A stretch of 25,818 nt of DNA from a virus. A program made the translations under genes and the position numbers. Each line of letters begins with the position of its first letter. Within the stretch, counting starts at the first letter, position 1. Positions 6,538-13,537 of this stretch are shown here, in pieces. The notes below the pieces were generated by a model. The model was not told where the DNA came from, made no database searches, and worked only from the letters and a program-made list of their open reading frames with translations. The stretch is from the IMG/VR virus record IMGVR_UViG_3300009506_000174, positions 1 through 25,818 of that record; one strand, written 5' to 3'.

Positions 6538-8547
6538 ATGCTTCGAGCGCGCACAAGACAGAGATCGATCCGGGGGCGCCACGCCGACTTGACTTACCGT
6601 CAATTCGCGTCGCCGGTTCCCGGTGTCTCAGGGCTGTCGCCCCTTATAACACCTTCGGGCGGCGGCTCAACCGAAGAGCCCGTGTTCCGCTTCTTTGGTG
6701 GAGACGCCGACGCCGTTGACTGGACGACTCGGGATTATCCCGGCACCCCGGTTGCGTGCGCGCGTCAAGCGGTCGGTGTTCAGCCCACGTACAACGACGG
6801 CTCGCCGTATCTCGGGCCCGATGACGACAGCGTGCTGTTCAATGCGAGTGATTACTATGCCGCGCCGAATACGAGTTTTGGTCAGATAGCAACCGAAGAC
6901 GCGGTCATTGAAATAATATTCTGTGCTGGCAACACTGGAAATGCAGCGCTATGTGGAACCGCTACCACGGGGCAGGGCTGGCGCATTTGGTGGAATGCTA
7001 ATATCCTTGTGGTTACAATTCATGATGGAAGCGGAGCAACGGCCACAACCTCTGCCGCTTCAATTGTAAGCGGACGCTGGTATCATGCTTTAATGTTCTT
7101 AGATAGAACGGGCAGTGCGCAAGTCTATATTAATGGTGTGGCCAGCGGTGCCGCTGTTGATATTAGCGGAAGACAATTGACACTAAATAGTGGATTGGCG
7201 TTTTGTGCTGGGTCGCGCGCATCGGGTGGGGTTCCATTTGATTCTAATATTGCTTATCTATCTATGTGGTTAAAAGCCGCCTGGTTGACCAGCCACCTGA
7301 ATGCCGACACGGCGAAGGAGCGCTTCGGCAAGCTCGAAGGTTGGTGGCCGAACGTTGCGAAGGGAACGGCCGCGCCGACGGTTCGGACGCGGGCCTATGT
7401 CGGTTTCAGCGAAAAGCTCGAGGCCGGGCTCGTTCGGATCTACCCGCGCGGCTCCGAGTCGATGCGCCTCAATCAGCGCTCCGACGTCTACGGAACCGTC
7501 GTCGGCTACCTCGCCGAGCCGCAGTCGAAAAATGTTCTCGGCGAGAGCAACGATTTCTCGGCCTGGACGAAAGAGGACGCCGGCGACGTCGTGACCGACG
7601 ATGCGGCCACCGGGCCCGACGGCCTGACTTCGGCCGCCACTCTGGTTTGCGACAACACGAATGGAAACCACGGCCTCAGCCTGCAGAGCGCCGATAACCT
7701 CACCGCGGCGAAAACCTGCGCTGCGATCTGGGTCGGTCACGGAAACGCGAGCTGGGTCAAAATCGAAGATACGACCGTAGCCAACGCCTACCGCTACTTC
7801 AACGCGGAGACCGGAGCGCTCGGGACGAAGGGTGCCGGCGCCGATGAAGCCGGGTTCGTGCTCGGTCAATACATCGGCGACGCCGATCGCCGGGTTTACA
7901 TCCGCTTCGGCGGAACGGTCGCGCTGCATACGATCCGGATTCGTCCCTGCGACGATAACGAGGTCGACACTTTCAGCGGCGGTGACGGTGTCGCCGTGAC
8001 CCTCTATTTACACGCCGCGCAGTGTGAAGAGGGCGATTATCCGACGAGTCGGATCGACACGGATGGAGGGGCGAGTGCGAGCAGATTGAAAGATCAATAT
8101 CAAGCGGTTGGCTTGGCCAACCTTGGTGGTATTGGAAGTGAGAAGCGCGGGCGTATTGAATGTAATATTTTGTTCCCGGATTCTGATTATTCTGCAAATT
8201 GTTTTATATTCGACATCACCGATGGAGGTGGAGCCGCAGATCGGATAGTAGCTTTTACGGCTGGCTCTGATGTAATTGCTGTAACAACCGCAGCAAGCGG
8301 CGGCTCTGGTGGTTCTGCCAATGGTATTACTGATGTTATTGATGGTGTTAGACATCGGTTTCAATTGTCTTGGCAGAAGGACGATTTGAGAAACATACTC
8401 GACAGTGTTTTGGAGAAACGCGATTCGGCAGTGGATTTACCAGATGATTTGGACATAATGGATATTGGAGAGACGAGAGCGCAAGGATCACAACTCAACG
8501 GTATTATGTCAGATTACAAAGTCTTCAAACGCCCGGGGCGTCGATGA
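6538..8547 (+). CDS. Laminin-G/concanavalin-like fibre or head-surface protein
   Basis: A 669-aa secreted-virion-type protein without obvious enzymatic motifs. Residues about 88-250 read as a LamG/ConA-like jelly-roll (GRWYHALMFLDRTGSAQVYI, then a strand with YLSMWLKAAWLTS). Residues about 325-505 look like a carbohydrate-binding beta-sandwich (NVLGESNDFSAWTKED, ending ...AAQCEEGDYPTSRI). Residues about 510-669 look like a second LamG-like region (DGVRHRFQLSWQKDD). The gene is patchwork in base composition: 6880-7275 and 8080-8525 are much AT-richer than the rest. Its place in the head operon suggests a fibre or decoration on the capsid, possibly glycan-binding, but a tail-fibre role cannot be excluded. 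The stop overlaps the next ATG (ATGA). Confidence 0.65.
   Translation: MLRARTRQRSIRGRHADLTYRQFASPVPGVSGLSPLITPSGGGSTEEPVFRFFGGDADAVDWTTRDYPGTPVACARQAVGVQPTYNDGSPYLGPDDDSVLFNASDYYAAPNTSFGQIATEDAVIEIIFCAGNTGNAALCGTATTGQGWRIWWNANILVVTIHDGSGATATTSAASIVSGRWYHALMFLDRTGSAQVYINGVASGAAVDISGRQLTLNSGLAFCAGSRASGGVPFDSNIAYLSMWLKAAWLTSHLNADTAKERFGKLEGWWPNVAKGTAAPTVRTRAYVGFSEKLEAGLVRIYPRGSESMRLNQRSDVYGTVVGYLAEPQSKNVLGESNDFSAWTKEDAGDVVTDDAATGPDGLTSAATLVCDNTNGNHGLSLQSADNLTAAKTCAAIWVGHGNASWVKIEDTTVANAYRYFNAETGALGTKGAGADEAGFVLGQYIGDADRRVYIRFGGTVALHTIRIRPCDDNEVDTFSGGDGVAVTLYLHAAQCEEGDYPTSRIDTDGGASASRLKDQYQAVGLANLGGIGSEKRGRIECNILFPDSDYSANCFIFDITDGGGAADRIVAFTAGSDVIAVTTAASGGSGGSANGITDVIDGVRHRFQLSWQKDDLRNILDSVLEKRDSAVDLPDDLDIMDIGETRAQGSQLNGIMSDYKVFKRPGRR
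6880..7275. other. Low-GC segment inside the LamG-type gene (first)
   Basis: Base composition drops sharply within one open reading frame. The line 7081-7140 has 23 G/C of 60, against 41 of 60 in 7321-7380 just downstream. The segment corresponds to the first LamG-like domain. The reading frame is intact on both sides, which suggests replacement of a domain cassette by recombination with a lower-GC source. The edges given are by eye. Confidence 0.65.
8080..8525. other. Low-GC segment inside the LamG-type gene (second)
   Basis: A second AT-rich block covers the C-terminal LamG-like region. The line 8161-8220 has 19 G/C of 60. The switch back to GC-rich sequence coincides closely with the end of the gene near 8530. 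Together with the first block it brackets a GC-rich middle module, so the gene reads as three cassettes of at least two origins. The edges are by eye. Confidence 0.65.
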
Positions 8548-8939
8548 TCTATCCTTCAATATACTTGCGCCGGGCCGATTGGAAAATGCTCGCGGATCCC
8601 GGCAAGGATCAACCCAACGGCGTTCACCTCGAGGGGCCGGACAAGGCGCGGGTCGTCGTCTACGCCGTCGACAACCAGGGCGCCGTGTGGCACTGCCTCT
8701 TGACCCCCGAGCAGCGCGAGGCGGTCGAGAAAGCCGGGATCGCGTTCAAGAATTTTTCGACGCTCGAGGAGATCGAAAAGCTCGCCGGAGCACCTCGACA
8801 CGTCTTCGGCTCCGCGGTCTACGAACCCGGTGACAAGGACGGCGAGTTCAAGGTATACAGACCAGGGAAGGCCGAGCCCGAGATCATCGCGGCGAACGTC
8901 GTCGCGGCCGAGCTCGAGGCGCGCGAGGTTGAGCGATGA
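8544..8939 (+). CDS. Small hypothetical phage protein
   Basis: I do not recognise this 131-aa protein. It has no signal peptide, membrane helix or cysteine pair. The N-terminal two-thirds alternates short beta-like stretches (KARVVVYAVDN, AVWHCLLT) with helices (TPEQREAVEKAG, STLEEIEKLAG). The C-terminus ends in an Ala/Glu-rich helix. ATG-8544 overlaps the LamG gene stop, and its own stop overlaps the protease start (ATGA on both sides), so it is tightly coupled to both. The body has the normal high GC of the head genes, unlike the end of the LamG gene. It could be a chaperone or attachment factor for the preceding fibre-like protein, but the sequence itself does not show this. Confidence 0.6.
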   Translation: MIYPSIYLRRADWKMLADPGKDQPNGVHLEGPDKARVVVYAVDNQGAVWHCLLTPEQREAVEKAGIAFKNFSTLEEIEKLAGAPRHVFGSAVYEPGDKDGEFKVYRPGKAEPEIIAANVVAAELEAREVER

Positions 8940-10636
8940 AATACCTCTACATTCTCGCCGAGATCAGTCGGCAACTCTGGGCGATCACTCCCGAGGCGAT
9001 GCGCGGGATTCTCTCGGCCCTCGAGGACAAGCTCGGGCCGGAGGATCGCGGCCTGTTCCACGCGGCCGACCTGGGCGCCGTGGTAGGTCACGTCGGCGAG
9101 GATTACAACAGCGGCCGGGCGCGAGTCGTCAACGGCGTCGGTGTAATCACAATCGACGGGCCGATCGTCCCTCGAGGAAACGCTCTACACGATTCCTCGG
9201 GGCTCGTGTCGATCGACCGGCTGACCACCGAGCTCAAGACGTTCCAGGCCGACCCGCAGATCCGAGAGATCCTGTTTCTGATCGACTCGCCCGGCGGGGC
9301 GACGACCGGAGTGTCCGAGCTCGCCTCGCTGATCGAGAAGACGGAGAAACCGACGTCGGCCTATGTCTACGGGTTCGCGGCGTCCGCGGCCTACTGGATC
9401 GCCAGCGCGACCGATCGGATCACCGTCTCCGACACCGGGCTCGTCGGCTCAATCGGAACGGTGCTCACCGTCCGGCGAGCGAGCGAGAACGATCCGATCG
9501 AAATCGTGTCGGCGCAGTCGCCGAACAAGCGCCCCGATCCCGAGACCGACGAGGGCCGGCGCGAACTTCAACGGATCGTCGATGGGATCGCGAAAGTGTT
9601 CATCGACACGGTGGCTCGCAACCGGAGCGTGAGCGCGAAAGACGTGACAGAAAAGTTCGGCCGCGGCGGTCTGCTGCTCGCTCCCGAGGCGCTAGCCGTC
9701 GGGATGATCGACGCGGTCTCGACGCTCGATGATTACCTCGCCGAGGAGGTCGAGAACGACGACACCGAGGGCGACGAGGAGATCCCTTTCGGCGCGACGA
9801 CCACGAACAACAGCGACACGGTAGAGACGGCAACCGAGCTCACTTCCGGAGCCATACCGGCATTCAAGGATTTTCCGATCGTCGATCGCCCCTGGGATGC
9901 GGCTGCGGCAGACAGGCGTGTCAGGGAGTTCACCGGCTCGAAAAAGCAACCGGCCGAGTTCTACAAAAACGCTTTCTTTTGGTACGATGACAAGAAAGCG
10001 GATCAGTATACCTCTTATAAGCTGCCATTCGCAGACATCGACGGCGGTCGAATGGTCGCCGTGAAAAAAGGCGTCCAGGCGGCCAATGGTGCGATGAGCG
10101 GCGCCCGGGGCGGGGTTTCGATCCCGGCGGCCGACAAATCCAAGGTGCAAAATCATATTGACAGGTATCTTAAAAAGATCGAAAAACAGAAGAACAACGG
10201 CGCGCGAGGCGCAGACAAAAACAGCGGAGCAAAAACCATGTCAGATCTCAACGCTTTGATGGCGGAAAACCCCGGGGCCAAGGCCGAGCTCGACAAACTC
10301 CTCGCGGACGCGCGCGCCGACGGGGCAAAAGAGGCCGACGAAACGATCAAGGCGCGTCTCGATGCCGCGTCGAAAATCATCGACAGCGACTACCCCGCGA
10401 AGATCAAGGCGATCGCCCTGGCCGTGGCCAAGGGCGAGAAGTCGGTCGAGCAGCTCGACACGGCCGTCGCCGTCTACGATTCGATCAAGGCGGATGCCGA
10501 CATCAAATCGGCGCAGGCGGATTCCGCCGCGGTCCCGCCGACTCCGCCGCAGACGCAGGGAGAGCGGTCGACGGACGGCGTCGTCAGGACCGAGGCCGAC
10601 ATCGAGGCCGCGGTCGCGGAGATGAAGAGCAAGTAA
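8936..10636 (+). CDS. S49-family prohead protease with C-terminal scaffold (lambda C/Nu3-like)
   Basis: This is a ClpP/SppA-type serine protease that would process scaffold and head proteins during maturation. The catalytic core lies at residues about 60-265: S150 in GFAASAAYW is the likely nucleophile and K198 in QSPNKRPDP the likely general base, a 48-residue spacing like the Ser-Lys dyad of SppA and lambda gpC. After an acidic linker comes an extra domain (residues about 300-420: FPIVDRPWDA, YKLPFADIDGG, ADKSKVQNHIDRYLKK) that resembles the C-terminal part of other phage prohead proteases. Residues 435-566 are the helical, charged scaffold segment. At 566 aa it is longer than lambda gpC (439 aa). 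ATG-8936 overlaps the previous stop. Confidence 0.88.
   Translation: MKYLYILAEISRQLWAITPEAMRGILSALEDKLGPEDRGLFHAADLGAVVGHVGEDYNSGRARVVNGVGVITIDGPIVPRGNALHDSSGLVSIDRLTTELKTFQADPQIREILFLIDSPGGATTGVSELASLIEKTEKPTSAYVYGFAASAAYWIASATDRITVSDTGLVGSIGTVLTVRRASENDPIEIVSAQSPNKRPDPETDEGRRELQRIVDGIAKVFIDTVARNRSVSAKDVTEKFGRGGLLLAPEALAVGMIDAVSTLDDYLAEEVENDDTEGDEEIPFGATTTNNSDTVETATELTSGAIPAFKDFPIVDRPWDAAAADRRVREFTGSKKQPAEFYKNAFFWYDDKKADQYTSYKLPFADIDGGRMVAVKKGVQAANGAMSGARGGVSIPAADKSKVQNHIDRYLKKIEKQKNNGARGADKNSGAKTMSDLNALMAENPGAKAELDKLLADARADGAKEADETIKARLDAASKIIDSDYPAKIKAIALAVAKGEKSVEQLDTAVAVYDSIKADADIKSAQADSAAVPPTPPQTQGERSTDGVVRTEADIEAAVAEMKSK
10238..10636 (+). CDS. Nested in-frame scaffold protein (Nu3-like) from an internal start
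   Basis: ATG-10238 is in frame with the protease gene (codon 435). It is preceded by a good ribosome site, GGAG at 10226-10229, 8 nt upstream. Translation from here gives a 132-aa Ala/Lys/Glu/Asp-rich, mainly helical protein (MSDLNALMAENPGAKAELDK at the start), the composition expected of a scaffold. Lambda makes its scaffold Nu3 the same way, from an internal start in gene C. The scaffold would assemble inside the prohead and be removed by the protease. The internal start is inferred from the ribosome site, the frame and the lambda precedent. Confidence 0.65.
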   Translation: MSDLNALMAENPGAKAELDKLLADARADGAKEADETIKARLDAASKIIDSDYPAKIKAIALAVAKGEKSVEQLDTAVAVYDSIKADADIKSAQADSAAVPPTPPQTQGERSTDGVVRTEADIEAAVAEMKSK

Positions 10637-10689
10637 AGAGGCCGGAACATCGGAGAAAAAGGCGCGGAGCCAACCAAACGAGGTAAACC

Positions 10690-12255
10690 ATGGGCGTGCA
10701 AGCGAGCCGAAACATAAACAACCAGGCGTTTTTTCAGAGCGGAAACGCGAACGTTAAGGAGGCCGAGACGATCGCGCAGGACGCGGGCCGCGTGGCCGTG
10801 CTCGCTTCCAAAACCGTCATGGCCAAGAACCCGACGACCGGAAAATGGGTTCCGCTGACCGACGTCGATCCGACCTCGGCGCCCGCGAAGATGGTCACCG
10901 GTGCGATCGGTTCCGAAGCGACGTTCCAACCCGTGACCGACGGCGAGTTCGCGATCACCGTCGACGGCGTCGCGATGAATATCACCGGCCTCAACTTCTC
11001 CGGAATCGAGGCGCCGACGGCCACGGGCGCGAGCTGCGTCTGCGGCGCGTTCGGCTCCACTCTTACGGCGATGCAGGCGATCACCGACGGCGCATTCGCG
11101 ATCACCGTCGACGGCGTCGCCCTCGCGATCTCCGGCCTCGACTTCTCCGACATCGACGCACCGAGCGACACGGCCGGAACGATGCTCTGTGGCGCCAACG
11201 GCTCGAACCTCGCGGCCTATCAGGCCGTGAACGATGCCGCGTTTACGTTCACCGTTAACGGGACCGTTCGCGCGATCACCGGCCTCGATTTCACCGGCGC
11301 GACCGCTTGGGCCGATGTCGCGCACATCATCGACGCCGCGATCGCACAGTACGGCGTTCGGTGCGAATATGACGAGACGGCCGACGTGTTCGAGTTCGTC
11401 ACCGTCAATCGCGGGCGCAACGCGACGATCTCCGTTCTCTCGGCGCCGGGCGCCGGAACCGACATCTCCGGCGTCGCCGGCCCGGGCTCGTTCCTCAACG
11501 GCGCGACCGGAACCGGCACCGCGACGGCTGGCACCGGCGGCCTCGGTGAGGGCGTGACGATCGCCGACGTCATCAACGACGTTGCCCGCGGGCGCGTCCG
11601 CTGCGAACTCGACGCCGCGGCCGGAACATACGTGTTCCTGTCTCCGCGGCGCGGGGCGATCTCGACGATCACCGCGCTTTCGGCGCCCGGTGCCGGAACC
11701 GATATCAGCGGCGCCGGCTACCTGAACGGCCTCACCGGAACCGCGACCCTGACACAGGGCACCGGCGACACCGGCGACGATCGGAACATCGCCGACGTCA
11801 TCAACGAAAAGGCCGAGGGCCGGTTCGAGGTGCTGTTCGATGGTACGAACCTTACCTTCATCTCTCCGACGACCGGGCTCGAGAGCGCGATCACGGTGCT
11901 TTCGGCCGTGGCCGGCGGCGCCGGAACGGACATCTCGGGCGCGTCCTACCTGAACGGCCTCACCGGTACCGGGACCGTTACCGCCTCGACCGGGTTCGAC
12001 GGCGCGAACATCCCGGCCGGGATCTACGTCGGCGACGAGATCGCCGCGGCGACCCTCGTCGCCGGCGACGTCTCCAACTGCCCGATCGTCGTCGGCGGAA
12101 ACGTCACGGTGAACCGGGATCAACTCGTGTTCGAAAACTCGCTGACGCTGGCGAGCGTCGTGGTGCCCCTGCGAAAGAGGATCGAGGACGTGCTCGCGGA
12201 GATCGGGATCTTCGCCGAGTATGCGGTCGATATCGACAGCTACGAGAACGCTTAG
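10690..12255 (+). CDS. Head decoration protein (lambda D-like) with inserted tandem repeats
   Basis: The ends of this 521-aa protein look like a lambda gpD-type capsid-stabilising protein. Residues about 40-70 (KNPTTGKWVPLTDVDPTSAP) and about 440-490 (IYVGDEIAAATLVAGDVSN, then VTVNRDQLVFENSL) resemble the two halves of the fold. gpD itself is only 110 aa. Between the halves lie about 350 residues of repeats: three copies of a 49-aa unit (FAITVDGVA...ITGLNFSG) and then two to three copies of a 76-84-aa unit with a GTDISG motif at residues 258, 338 and 414. The repeats resemble modules of phage sheath-like DUF3383 proteins. It lies directly before the major capsid gene, as D does in lambda. GAGGT lies 6 nt before ATG-10690. 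The D-like fold is inferred from short motifs and position. Confidence 0.72.
   Translation: MGVQASRNINNQAFFQSGNANVKEAETIAQDAGRVAVLASKTVMAKNPTTGKWVPLTDVDPTSAPAKMVTGAIGSEATFQPVTDGEFAITVDGVAMNITGLNFSGIEAPTATGASCVCGAFGSTLTAMQAITDGAFAITVDGVALAISGLDFSDIDAPSDTAGTMLCGANGSNLAAYQAVNDAAFTFTVNGTVRAITGLDFTGATAWADVAHIIDAAIAQYGVRCEYDETADVFEFVTVNRGRNATISVLSAPGAGTDISGVAGPGSFLNGATGTGTATAGTGGLGEGVTIADVINDVARGRVRCELDAAAGTYVFLSPRRGAISTITALSAPGAGTDISGAGYLNGLTGTATLTQGTGDTGDDRNIADVINEKAEGRFEVLFDGTNLTFISPTTGLESAITVLSAVAGGAGTDISGASYLNGLTGTGTVTASTGFDGANIPAGIYVGDEIAAATLVAGDVSNCPIVVGGNVTVNRDQLVFENSLTLASVVVPLRKRIEDVLAEIGIFAEYAVDIDSYENA
10909..11330 (+). repeat. Three tandem coding repeats of about 147 nt
   Basis: Units begin near 10909, 11053 and 11200. 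The core GATCACCGTCGACGGCGT is identical in the first two copies, 147 nt apart, and diverged in the third (TTCACCGTTAACGG, again 147 nt on). Each unit encodes about 49 residues with the pattern DG-FAITVDG--ITGL-FS. All are in frame within the decoration protein. Confidence 0.8.
11308..12000 (+). repeat. Two to three imperfect coding repeats of about 228-250 nt
   Basis: The motif encoding GTDISG recurs at 11461, 11701 and 11929 and the IADVIN motif at 11560 and 11788 (228 nt apart). Each unit runs from an IADVIN-type helix through an SP--G--S-IT-LSA strand to GTDISG--YLNGLTGT. They follow the 147-nt repeats in the same gene, and copies differ by small in-frame indels. Confidence 0.75.
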
Positions 12256-12319: not shown

Positions 12320-13537
12320 ATGGCAACCTGGCAGACAACGCCCTTGGCCCAAGATCCCTACTCGCGTATGATGGCGCTCGCCTTCGACGAGTCGGAGATC
12401 ATCGGTGTACCGACCGCCTTTCAGTCGCTCTTCGGACGCGGCGGAGCACTCGGCGCGACCCTGTTCTCTCCGGTGGCGTCGGTCGTCGAGATCGATGTCA
12501 TCCGCGGAAACCGCAAAACGGCCGCGCTCGTTCCGCGCGGCATGATCTCGCGGCCCCTCGGCGCGACGCAGCGCGACACCGCGGCCGGGAAATACACGAG
12601 CTTCGCTCGTCGCTTCCCGCTGTCGATCGAGGAGGGCGCGATCAGCGCCGATCAGCTCGAGTTTCGGCCGGCCGGAGAAAATCCGTACGCGGCCAGCGAC
12701 CACCGGGCGCGCGTTCGTATGTTCGCCCTGCGCGAGCACATGGAGCAGATCCGGCGAACGGTCAGGATGTTCGAGCGCTTGGCCGCACAGTCCGTCCTCG
12801 AGGGGAAGCAAGACGCGATCCTCGACACGAGCTCGACAGACGAACAGTACGACTTCAAGCGCAAGGCCGCTCACGCCGCGACGGCCTCGGCCAGCTGGGG
12901 CACCGCTGCGACCGATATCGCCGGCGACATCGACGACGCCTGCGAGATGGTTCGGAACGACGGCAATATCACGCCCGATATGCTGATCTGCTCCGACGAA
13001 GCGATCGAAGGGATCCTGAAAAACACCGCGCTCCTCGCCTGGGCCGACAACCGGCGGATCGGTCTGCTGCAGGCCGGCTCCCTCAACGCACCGCCGCTCC
13101 CGTCCGAATACGCCCCGTTGATCGCCGGCGGCATGATTCACCGCGGGTTCATCGAGACGCCCAAGGGGTTCAAGCTGCAGGTGTTCTCGTACGTCGATAC
13201 GTACCACAACGCCTCCGGGACCGAGGTCAAGTTCATGACGGCCAACTATGCGATCGTCGGCTCCATCAAGGCGCGCTGCGATCGCTACTTCGGCCCGCCC
13301 GAGCGTCTCCCGCTCTCGCCGGCCGAGGAGGCCGACATGCGTTACTTCATGGGCGTCGACCCGGCGGCCGGGATGATCCCCCCCAACATCAAGGGCGCTC
13401 CCGGCGTCATCTCGCCGGCGATGTTCTACTTCGACTTCTACAAGAGCGGCCGGAAGATCTTCACCGTCGAGACGCAGTCGGCGCCGATCTTCGCGACGAC
13501 GATGACCGACGCCTGGGTCGTTATCGACGTGACCTAG
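12320..13537 (+). CDS. Major capsid protein, lambda gpE family
   Basis: This 405-aa protein forms the icosahedral shell in the HK97 fold. Family signs are the N-terminal FGRGGALGATLFSPVASVVEIDVIRG segment, the EHMEQIRRTVRMFERLAAQSVLEGK helix near residue 145, and the C-terminal IGVPT-to-IFATTMTDAWVVIDVT strands typical of the E family. Lambda gpE has 341 aa. A good ribosome site (AAGAGGAG) lies just before ATG-12320. It is preceded by the decoration gene and flanked on both sides by stem-loops that could raise its expression. The gene order protease-scaffold-decoration-capsid matches lambda C-Nu3-D-E. Confidence 0.92.
   Translation: MATWQTTPLAQDPYSRMMALAFDESEIIGVPTAFQSLFGRGGALGATLFSPVASVVEIDVIRGNRKTAALVPRGMISRPLGATQRDTAAGKYTSFARRFPLSIEEGAISADQLEFRPAGENPYAASDHRARVRMFALREHMEQIRRTVRMFERLAAQSVLEGKQDAILDTSSTDEQYDFKRKAAHAATASASWGTAATDIAGDIDDACEMVRNDGNITPDMLICSDEAIEGILKNTALLAWADNRRIGLLQAGSLNAPPLPSEYAPLIAGGMIHRGFIETPKGFKLQVFSYVDTYHNASGTEVKFMTANYAIVGSIKARCDRYFGPPERLPLSPAEEADMRYFMGVDPAAGMIPPNIKGAPGVISPAMFYFDFYKSGRKIFTVETQSAPIFATTMTDAWVVIDVT

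Follow-up and report, generated by a model that had tools for sequence, protein, structure and literature searches.

The open reading frame at positions 10690–12255 of the window, a 25.8-kb stretch (25,818 nucleotides) from an uncultured-virus record that carries the structural-gene half of a phage with a contractile tail, very probably encodes a D-type head decoration protein with a nested insert, A1[A2[A3-b1]b2]b3, that would form an outward-directed tower of three domains. The chain would run up through the front halves of the domains (A1, A2, A3), turn at the tip and run back down through their back halves (b1, b2, b3), giving each subunit one tower of three stacked domains with both feet in the capsid-bound core. 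The height of such a tower would shift by whole layers of one front and one back half (~125 aa), through gain or loss of a module in the loop that joins two such halves. The towers would provide a variable surface that contacts cells or particles, whereas cementing would be left to the core alone.

The gene occupies the slot of lambda D (lambda order C-D-E), with the S49 protease gene on one side and the gene for the major capsid protein on the other. The major capsid gene lies directly downstream and fixes the genomic position, and in the relatives examined the D-type gene is also found directly 5' of the capsid gene. From this position and from the family of the core, we infer that the 521-aa protein is present in the virion. 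The coordinates of the gene, its parts and its neighbors are collected in Table 1. Two further open reading frames of the window were recorded. The product of one, at 6538–8547 between the portal and protease genes, has 669 aa and contains a laminin-G/concanavalin-like domain (PF13385, E 2e-10); it is possibly another surface protein, encoded within the head-gene block. The other, at 980–1789 just 5' of the large terminase gene, carries a radical-SAM signature (PF04055, E 2e-4, under the curated cut-off) and a GCFNKCWFC motif, an odd location for such an enzyme.

Table 1. Predicted features of the window around the decoration gene, with the evidence for each
Feature	Position	Strand	Evidence or remark
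GpA terminase	1786		in window
Lambda-type portal	4125		in window
S49-family capsid protease/scaffold gene, lambda C/Nu3 position	8936..10636	+	PF01343 E 5e-19
Ribosome-binding site GAGG	10680..10683	+	sequence
D-type decoration gene with repeats	10690..12255	+	521 aa; frame open throughout
D-type core, N-terminal part, residues 1–67	10690..10890	+	41 compact D homologs aligned; pLDDT 94–97
Front half A1, residues 68–116	10891..11037	+	sheath-module HMM positions 14–43, E 8e-9
Front half A2, residues 117–165	11038..11184	+	sheath-module HMM positions 12–43, E 4e-10
Front half A3 of the sole uninterrupted module, residues 166–204	11185..11301	+	HMM positions 4–104 over residues 164–269, E 7e-21
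Back half b1, contiguous with A3, residues 205–289	11302..11556	+	helix, three strands, GTDIS, linker
Back half b2, residues 290–365	11557..11784	+	sheath-module HMM positions 49–101, E 6e-5
Back half b3, residues 366–434	11785..11991	+	sheath-module HMM positions 48–101, E 1e-7
D-type core, C-terminal part, residues 435–521 and stop	11992..12255	+	compact D homologs aligned; pLDDT mostly 88–97
Major capsid protein, gpE type	12320..13537	+	PF03864 E 6e-14; phrog_29 major head protein E 3e-28
Phage's own sheath gene	14793		phrog_165
Tail tube	16378		in window
Tape measure	17365		in window
Baseplate genes	from 20758		in window

The core of the protein could be assigned to the lambda D-type (beta-tulip) head decoration proteins through its compact relatives. 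HDPD (lambda D, Pfam PF02924) did not match the window protein itself, but matched 30 of the 41 compact homologs that align with its ends (best E 2e-10), and 18 compact versions were matched by PHROG head decoration. An AF2 model of one compact relative, L014, made from 41 sequences, reached a pLDDT of 90.5 and a pTM of 0.82; its top Foldseek matches in the PDB were the decoration proteins of YSD1, SHP, Bas63, lambda D, Sf14 and PhiTE, together with 5mfd, an entry named as a designed armadillo protein complexed with pD_(KR)5, which we read as a lambda D fusion. The full window model had a pTM of 0.48, its domain arrangement was not reliably predicted, and the 50 Foldseek matches listed for it included sheaths and flagellar proteins but no decoration proteins; the D fold is demonstrated on the compact relative. 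Strands 15–17, 21–28, 42–46 and 53–55 and elements 442–446, 453–458, 461–469, 472–475 and 498–504 of the core follow the compact order in the model of the window protein, mostly with pLDDT 88–97. The N-terminal core part closes with the W-x-P strand and the subsequent loop, its strands being the same in both models, and the insert sits in this loop, the second of the core, which leads from the W-x-P strand to the P-x-G-I-Y strand. The alignment of the compact-family profile to lambda D alone was insignificant, and a search of PDB sequences with the same profile returned chance matches only. An earlier note on this DNA had described the protein as a D-type capsid stabilizer split by internal repeats, and this description holds: most compact relatives of the two ends match HDPD, one compact relative adopts the D-type fold in prediction, its core elements recur in unchanged order in the window model, and some 370 internal residues are repeats.

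Direct searches with the window protein of viral contigs, annotated phages (E <= 1e-3) and plasmids returned no relative, PHROGs gave no match, and capsid protein scans of genome collections also gave no match. Two weak tblastn matches of the window protein were rejected, AH02 gp13 being encoded beside an injection-translocase gene and IFTN9 being a sheath. A capsid-protein search led to a single contig, L002, in which the corresponding position holds a version of the gene for 404 aa; compared with the window, it is short of exactly one front unit (48 aa) and one back unit (77 aa). Searching DNA with a degenerate form of the capsid motif RYFGPPERLP, followed by capsid alignment, yielded 77 loci; 60 were non-duplicate related loci with a readable gene upstream of the capsid gene, and 2 more loci stayed unassigned. 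The upstream gene was a compact version of 140–165 aa at 42 of the 60 loci, and carried a different insert, here called X, at 11, window-type repeats at six and a third kind of insert at one (L057).

Since an insert of ~370 aa in a core loop is too big to fit under the trimer that gpD-like proteins form, which binds the capsid mainly via the N-terminus (PMC7602432), it would have to project outward or sideways, and the towers presumably point outward from the shell, the projection that the earlier note had sensibly supposed. For the additional domains of sheaths, adhesion and tail stabilization have both been proposed (PMC9230969), as have adhesion or stability for broadly similar domains of sheaths and heads (PMC9230969, PMC7602432). 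The absence of any insert from 42 of 60 relatives argues for an accessory surface role, and adhesion or surface contact has about an even chance of being what the tower does. Even if the nesting is right, the towers might be structural, buttressing neighboring trimers into a thicker cage without being adhesive, as capsid stabilization is the general role of the family (PMC7602432) and tail stabilization has been suggested for the additional domains of sheaths (PMC9230969); the 42 insert-free relatives and the variable layer number are easier to reconcile with an accessory surface than with a brace that is essential, and we regard the structural role as possible but rather unlikely.

The repeats themselves were confirmed. 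Direct repeats recur twice at a spacing of 147 nt (10919/11066, 77% over 111 nt; 10935/11082/11229) and at spacings of 240 and 228 nt (11448/11688/11916), and Tandem Repeats Finder scored the 147-nt array at 347. They correspond to three 49-aa units and to three units ending in GTDIS, spaced 80 and 76 aa apart, as the earlier note had stated. The repeats are above chance because DUF3383 from Pfam matched the 521-aa protein in three stretches (E = 3e-20; no further named Pfam family was significant) and an independent sheath-domain HMM matched five segments (E 6e-5 to 7e-21). These matches also bear out the proposed resemblance of the second repeat kind to DUF3383 and sheath proteins. Both unit types exist, but instead of two kinds of repeat they are complementary halves of one sheath-type domain, nested and equal in number.

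The order of these halves was read with a sheath-module HMM of 111 positions built from four sheath copies only. On the window protein, residues 77–106 aligned with model positions 14–43, 124–155 with 12–43, 164–269 with 4–104, 291–349 with 49–101 and 366–425 with 48–101, which gives the order front-front-whole-back-back. The same order was found in L061, L086 and L089, and front-whole-back in L025 and L088; family-specific HMMs detected two front and two back halves in L024, which lacks exactly one front and one back unit of the window. The number of fronts equaled the number of backs in all seven repeat proteins, the half-domain breakpoint was the same in all of them, and the order whole-whole occurred in none. 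Tandem duplication would yield successive whole copies, so the half order and the equal counts identify the arrangement, at the level of sequence, as nested (recursive) insertion and not tandem repetition. Layer numbers were 3, 2 and 2 in the window, L024 and L025 and 3, 2 and 3 in L086, L088 and L089, and only 2 and 3 were seen in the window-type module family. The repeat number thus differs among related genomes, and the earlier suggestion that it could expand or contract stands in so far as it does; the change is by whole layers (~125 aa), not by 147-nt slippage. A1 and A2 share 61% identity in protein and 77% in DNA, so nothing in the window points to a very recent expansion.

Which halves belong together is suggested by their similarity. 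A1 and A2 were the most similar front pair in all four three-layer proteins, and b2 and b3 the most similar back pair in three of the four, with one tie (84% and 75% in L061). This likeness supports, but does not prove, layers composed of A1 with b3, A2 with b2 and A3 with b1, as a linear pairing predicts that b1 and b2 are most alike. The protein might instead hold two independent tandem arrays, with solenoid-like stacking of the 49-aa and the 76–80-aa units and equal counts by coincidence; adjacent units are 77–78% alike in DNA and keep a constant 147-nt spacing, as in arrays grown by slippage. This is improbable, given that the halves match only the front and the rear portion of a domain found whole in tail sheaths, that the breakpoint is one and the same in all proteins, that the counts are equal in seven of seven, and that the unrelated insert X has the same half order.

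The nested module is identifiable by sequence and predicted fold as the insertion domain of DUF3383/XM1-type tail sheaths, the two repeat kinds being its front and back halves. All seven repeat proteins matched DUF3383 (PF11863), and the window protein and its relatives matched only the insertion-domain part (about 85–226 of the 493 profile positions), the N- and C-terminal domains of the sheath core having no match in the window protein. Foldseek matched the full window model to the XM1 sheath (E 6e-7) and the E217 sheath (3.0 Å over 131 columns), followed by FliD and flagellin domains; a model of the SppYZU05 sheath superposed on the window model at 0.9 Å over 92 columns, and L061 matched the XM1 gp6 gene by tblastn within the sheath reading frame. 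The N-terminal domain of the XM1 sheath carries an inserted domain resembling FliD D3 (PMC10457771). In every DUF3383-type sheath examined, the module was single and uninterrupted, and the listed sheaths with XM1-like domains, inspected for nesting, aligned without long extra stretches. The top viral structural match, BFVD A0A8S5NB24 (649 aa; 296 columns aligned), is an oversized sheath that may carry a nested sheath insertion domain.

With DUF3383, a tail-sheath family, as the best Pfam match and sheaths as the best full-length structural matches, the protein could also be taken for a tail component, sheath-like or fiber, instead of a capsid decoration. The match is, however, confined to the insertion-domain part (profile positions 90–185 of 493), the phage has a separate phrog_165 sheath gene (14793), and the compact relatives in the same position are HDPD proteins with the D fold, leaving a tail component highly improbable. 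An assembly artefact or a decaying gene in one contig, conceivable for a window that is a single uncultured-virus record, has a negligible chance and is already refuted by six other non-duplicate contigs that carry the repeat architecture intact at 48–56% identity; the frame is also open throughout.

Beyond the window-type family, the X insert, located one core loop earlier and showing no detectable relation to the DUF3383 module, revealed the same half order. An X HMM aligned to L047 at model positions 2–43, 6–106 and 46–118 (front-whole-back) and to the 5'-truncated L029 at 5–43, 4–104, 46–106 and 44–118 (front-whole-back-back). On the capsid tree, L047 is closest to L096, which has a single X module; comparison of their DNA shows the difference to be one insert of ~280 nt within the X module. 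The whole inner copy of L047 scored 31.8 bits and the outer back half 92.4 bits, so the inner module has diverged more from the family and is probably not a recent copy of the host module. The third insert, in the 349-aa decoration protein of L057 (2929–3978), looks front-whole-back on inspection; the HMM weakly supports its inner copy and the next back half, and its nesting is no more than probable. Single X modules occur in annotated head decoration D proteins of the cultured Pseudomonas phages Turba and Haddon and of cyanophage Cy-LDV1 (L108 1609–2244, L109 1609–2241 and L110 1627–2253). In phage WC36-2, a D-like protein with an X module is encoded upstream of a capsid-like gene (L007 203–1120), and the same phage has a DUF3383 sheath with one whole module.

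Given two unrelated domain families in two different loops of the same core, and probably a third in L057, recursive self-insertion seems a reasonably likely general and convergent route to two-footed towers on phage decoration proteins. A domain in a core loop would take up the next domain in its own loop, and the tower would grow or shrink by whole layers with the binding core left intact. On the capsid tree, the repeat-bearing phages fell in three places, and the AU test did not reject a single clade (p 0.3); the D-core tree placed them together, with the compact L059. Independent acquisition of the insert is not claimed in view of these two results. Insert types cluster on the D-core tree and scatter on the capsid tree; decoration genes may pass whole from one capsid type to another, unless the capsid tree is too poorly resolved.

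Nested insertion in general is known, with as many as six levels in the RNA polymerase of cyanobacteria (PMC13114784), and we found no report of it in decoration proteins in the open-licence literature; the novelty lies in the protein that hosts it, in the recursion of a single module family and in a natural series of layer numbers. Domain strings are already known on decoration proteins, and a nested array with two ends is a different building principle, by which length would vary without a free end and gain or loss would occur only as matched half-domain pairs. The series within one phage group, from no insert through one layer (type X) to two and three, makes both the structure and the evolution of nesting testable, and a natural lambda D-type core with ~370 aa in an internal loop may interest users of lambda D display.

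The closest known systems each share part of this architecture. Lambda gpD and the SHP of phage 21 (PF02924) occupy the same slot and are matched by the compact relatives of the core in sequence and fold, but lambda D (110 aa) lacks an insert where the loop here holds ~370 aa of nested modules. The sheaths of the DUF3383 family, including Vibrio phage XM1 gp6, have the same module by sequence and predicted fold, likewise inserted in a host protein (PMC10457771); they carry it once and uninterrupted, whereas here it sits on a head protein and is nested in two or three layers. T4 Hoc, T5 pb10, N4 gp17 and Sf14 gp20 also project a varying number of beta domains (PMC7602432, PMC11821841), but as Ig-like domains in series on a single capsid-binding domain, in contrast to an array with both ends in the core. 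The window protein has no linear Ig-like string on a terminal capsid-binding domain, its modules being split, nested and located between the core halves. The D2-D3 domains of flagellin and FliD, which Foldseek matched to the window model, belong to proteins without a D core that are not phage head proteins. The outer domains of flagellin and FliD likewise lie mid-chain, with both chain ends forming the assembly core. The D proteins of Turba, Haddon and Cy-LDV1 also lie upstream of the capsid gene and carry one inserted beta domain, yet theirs is the different, type X domain, in one layer only and in proteins of about 210 aa.
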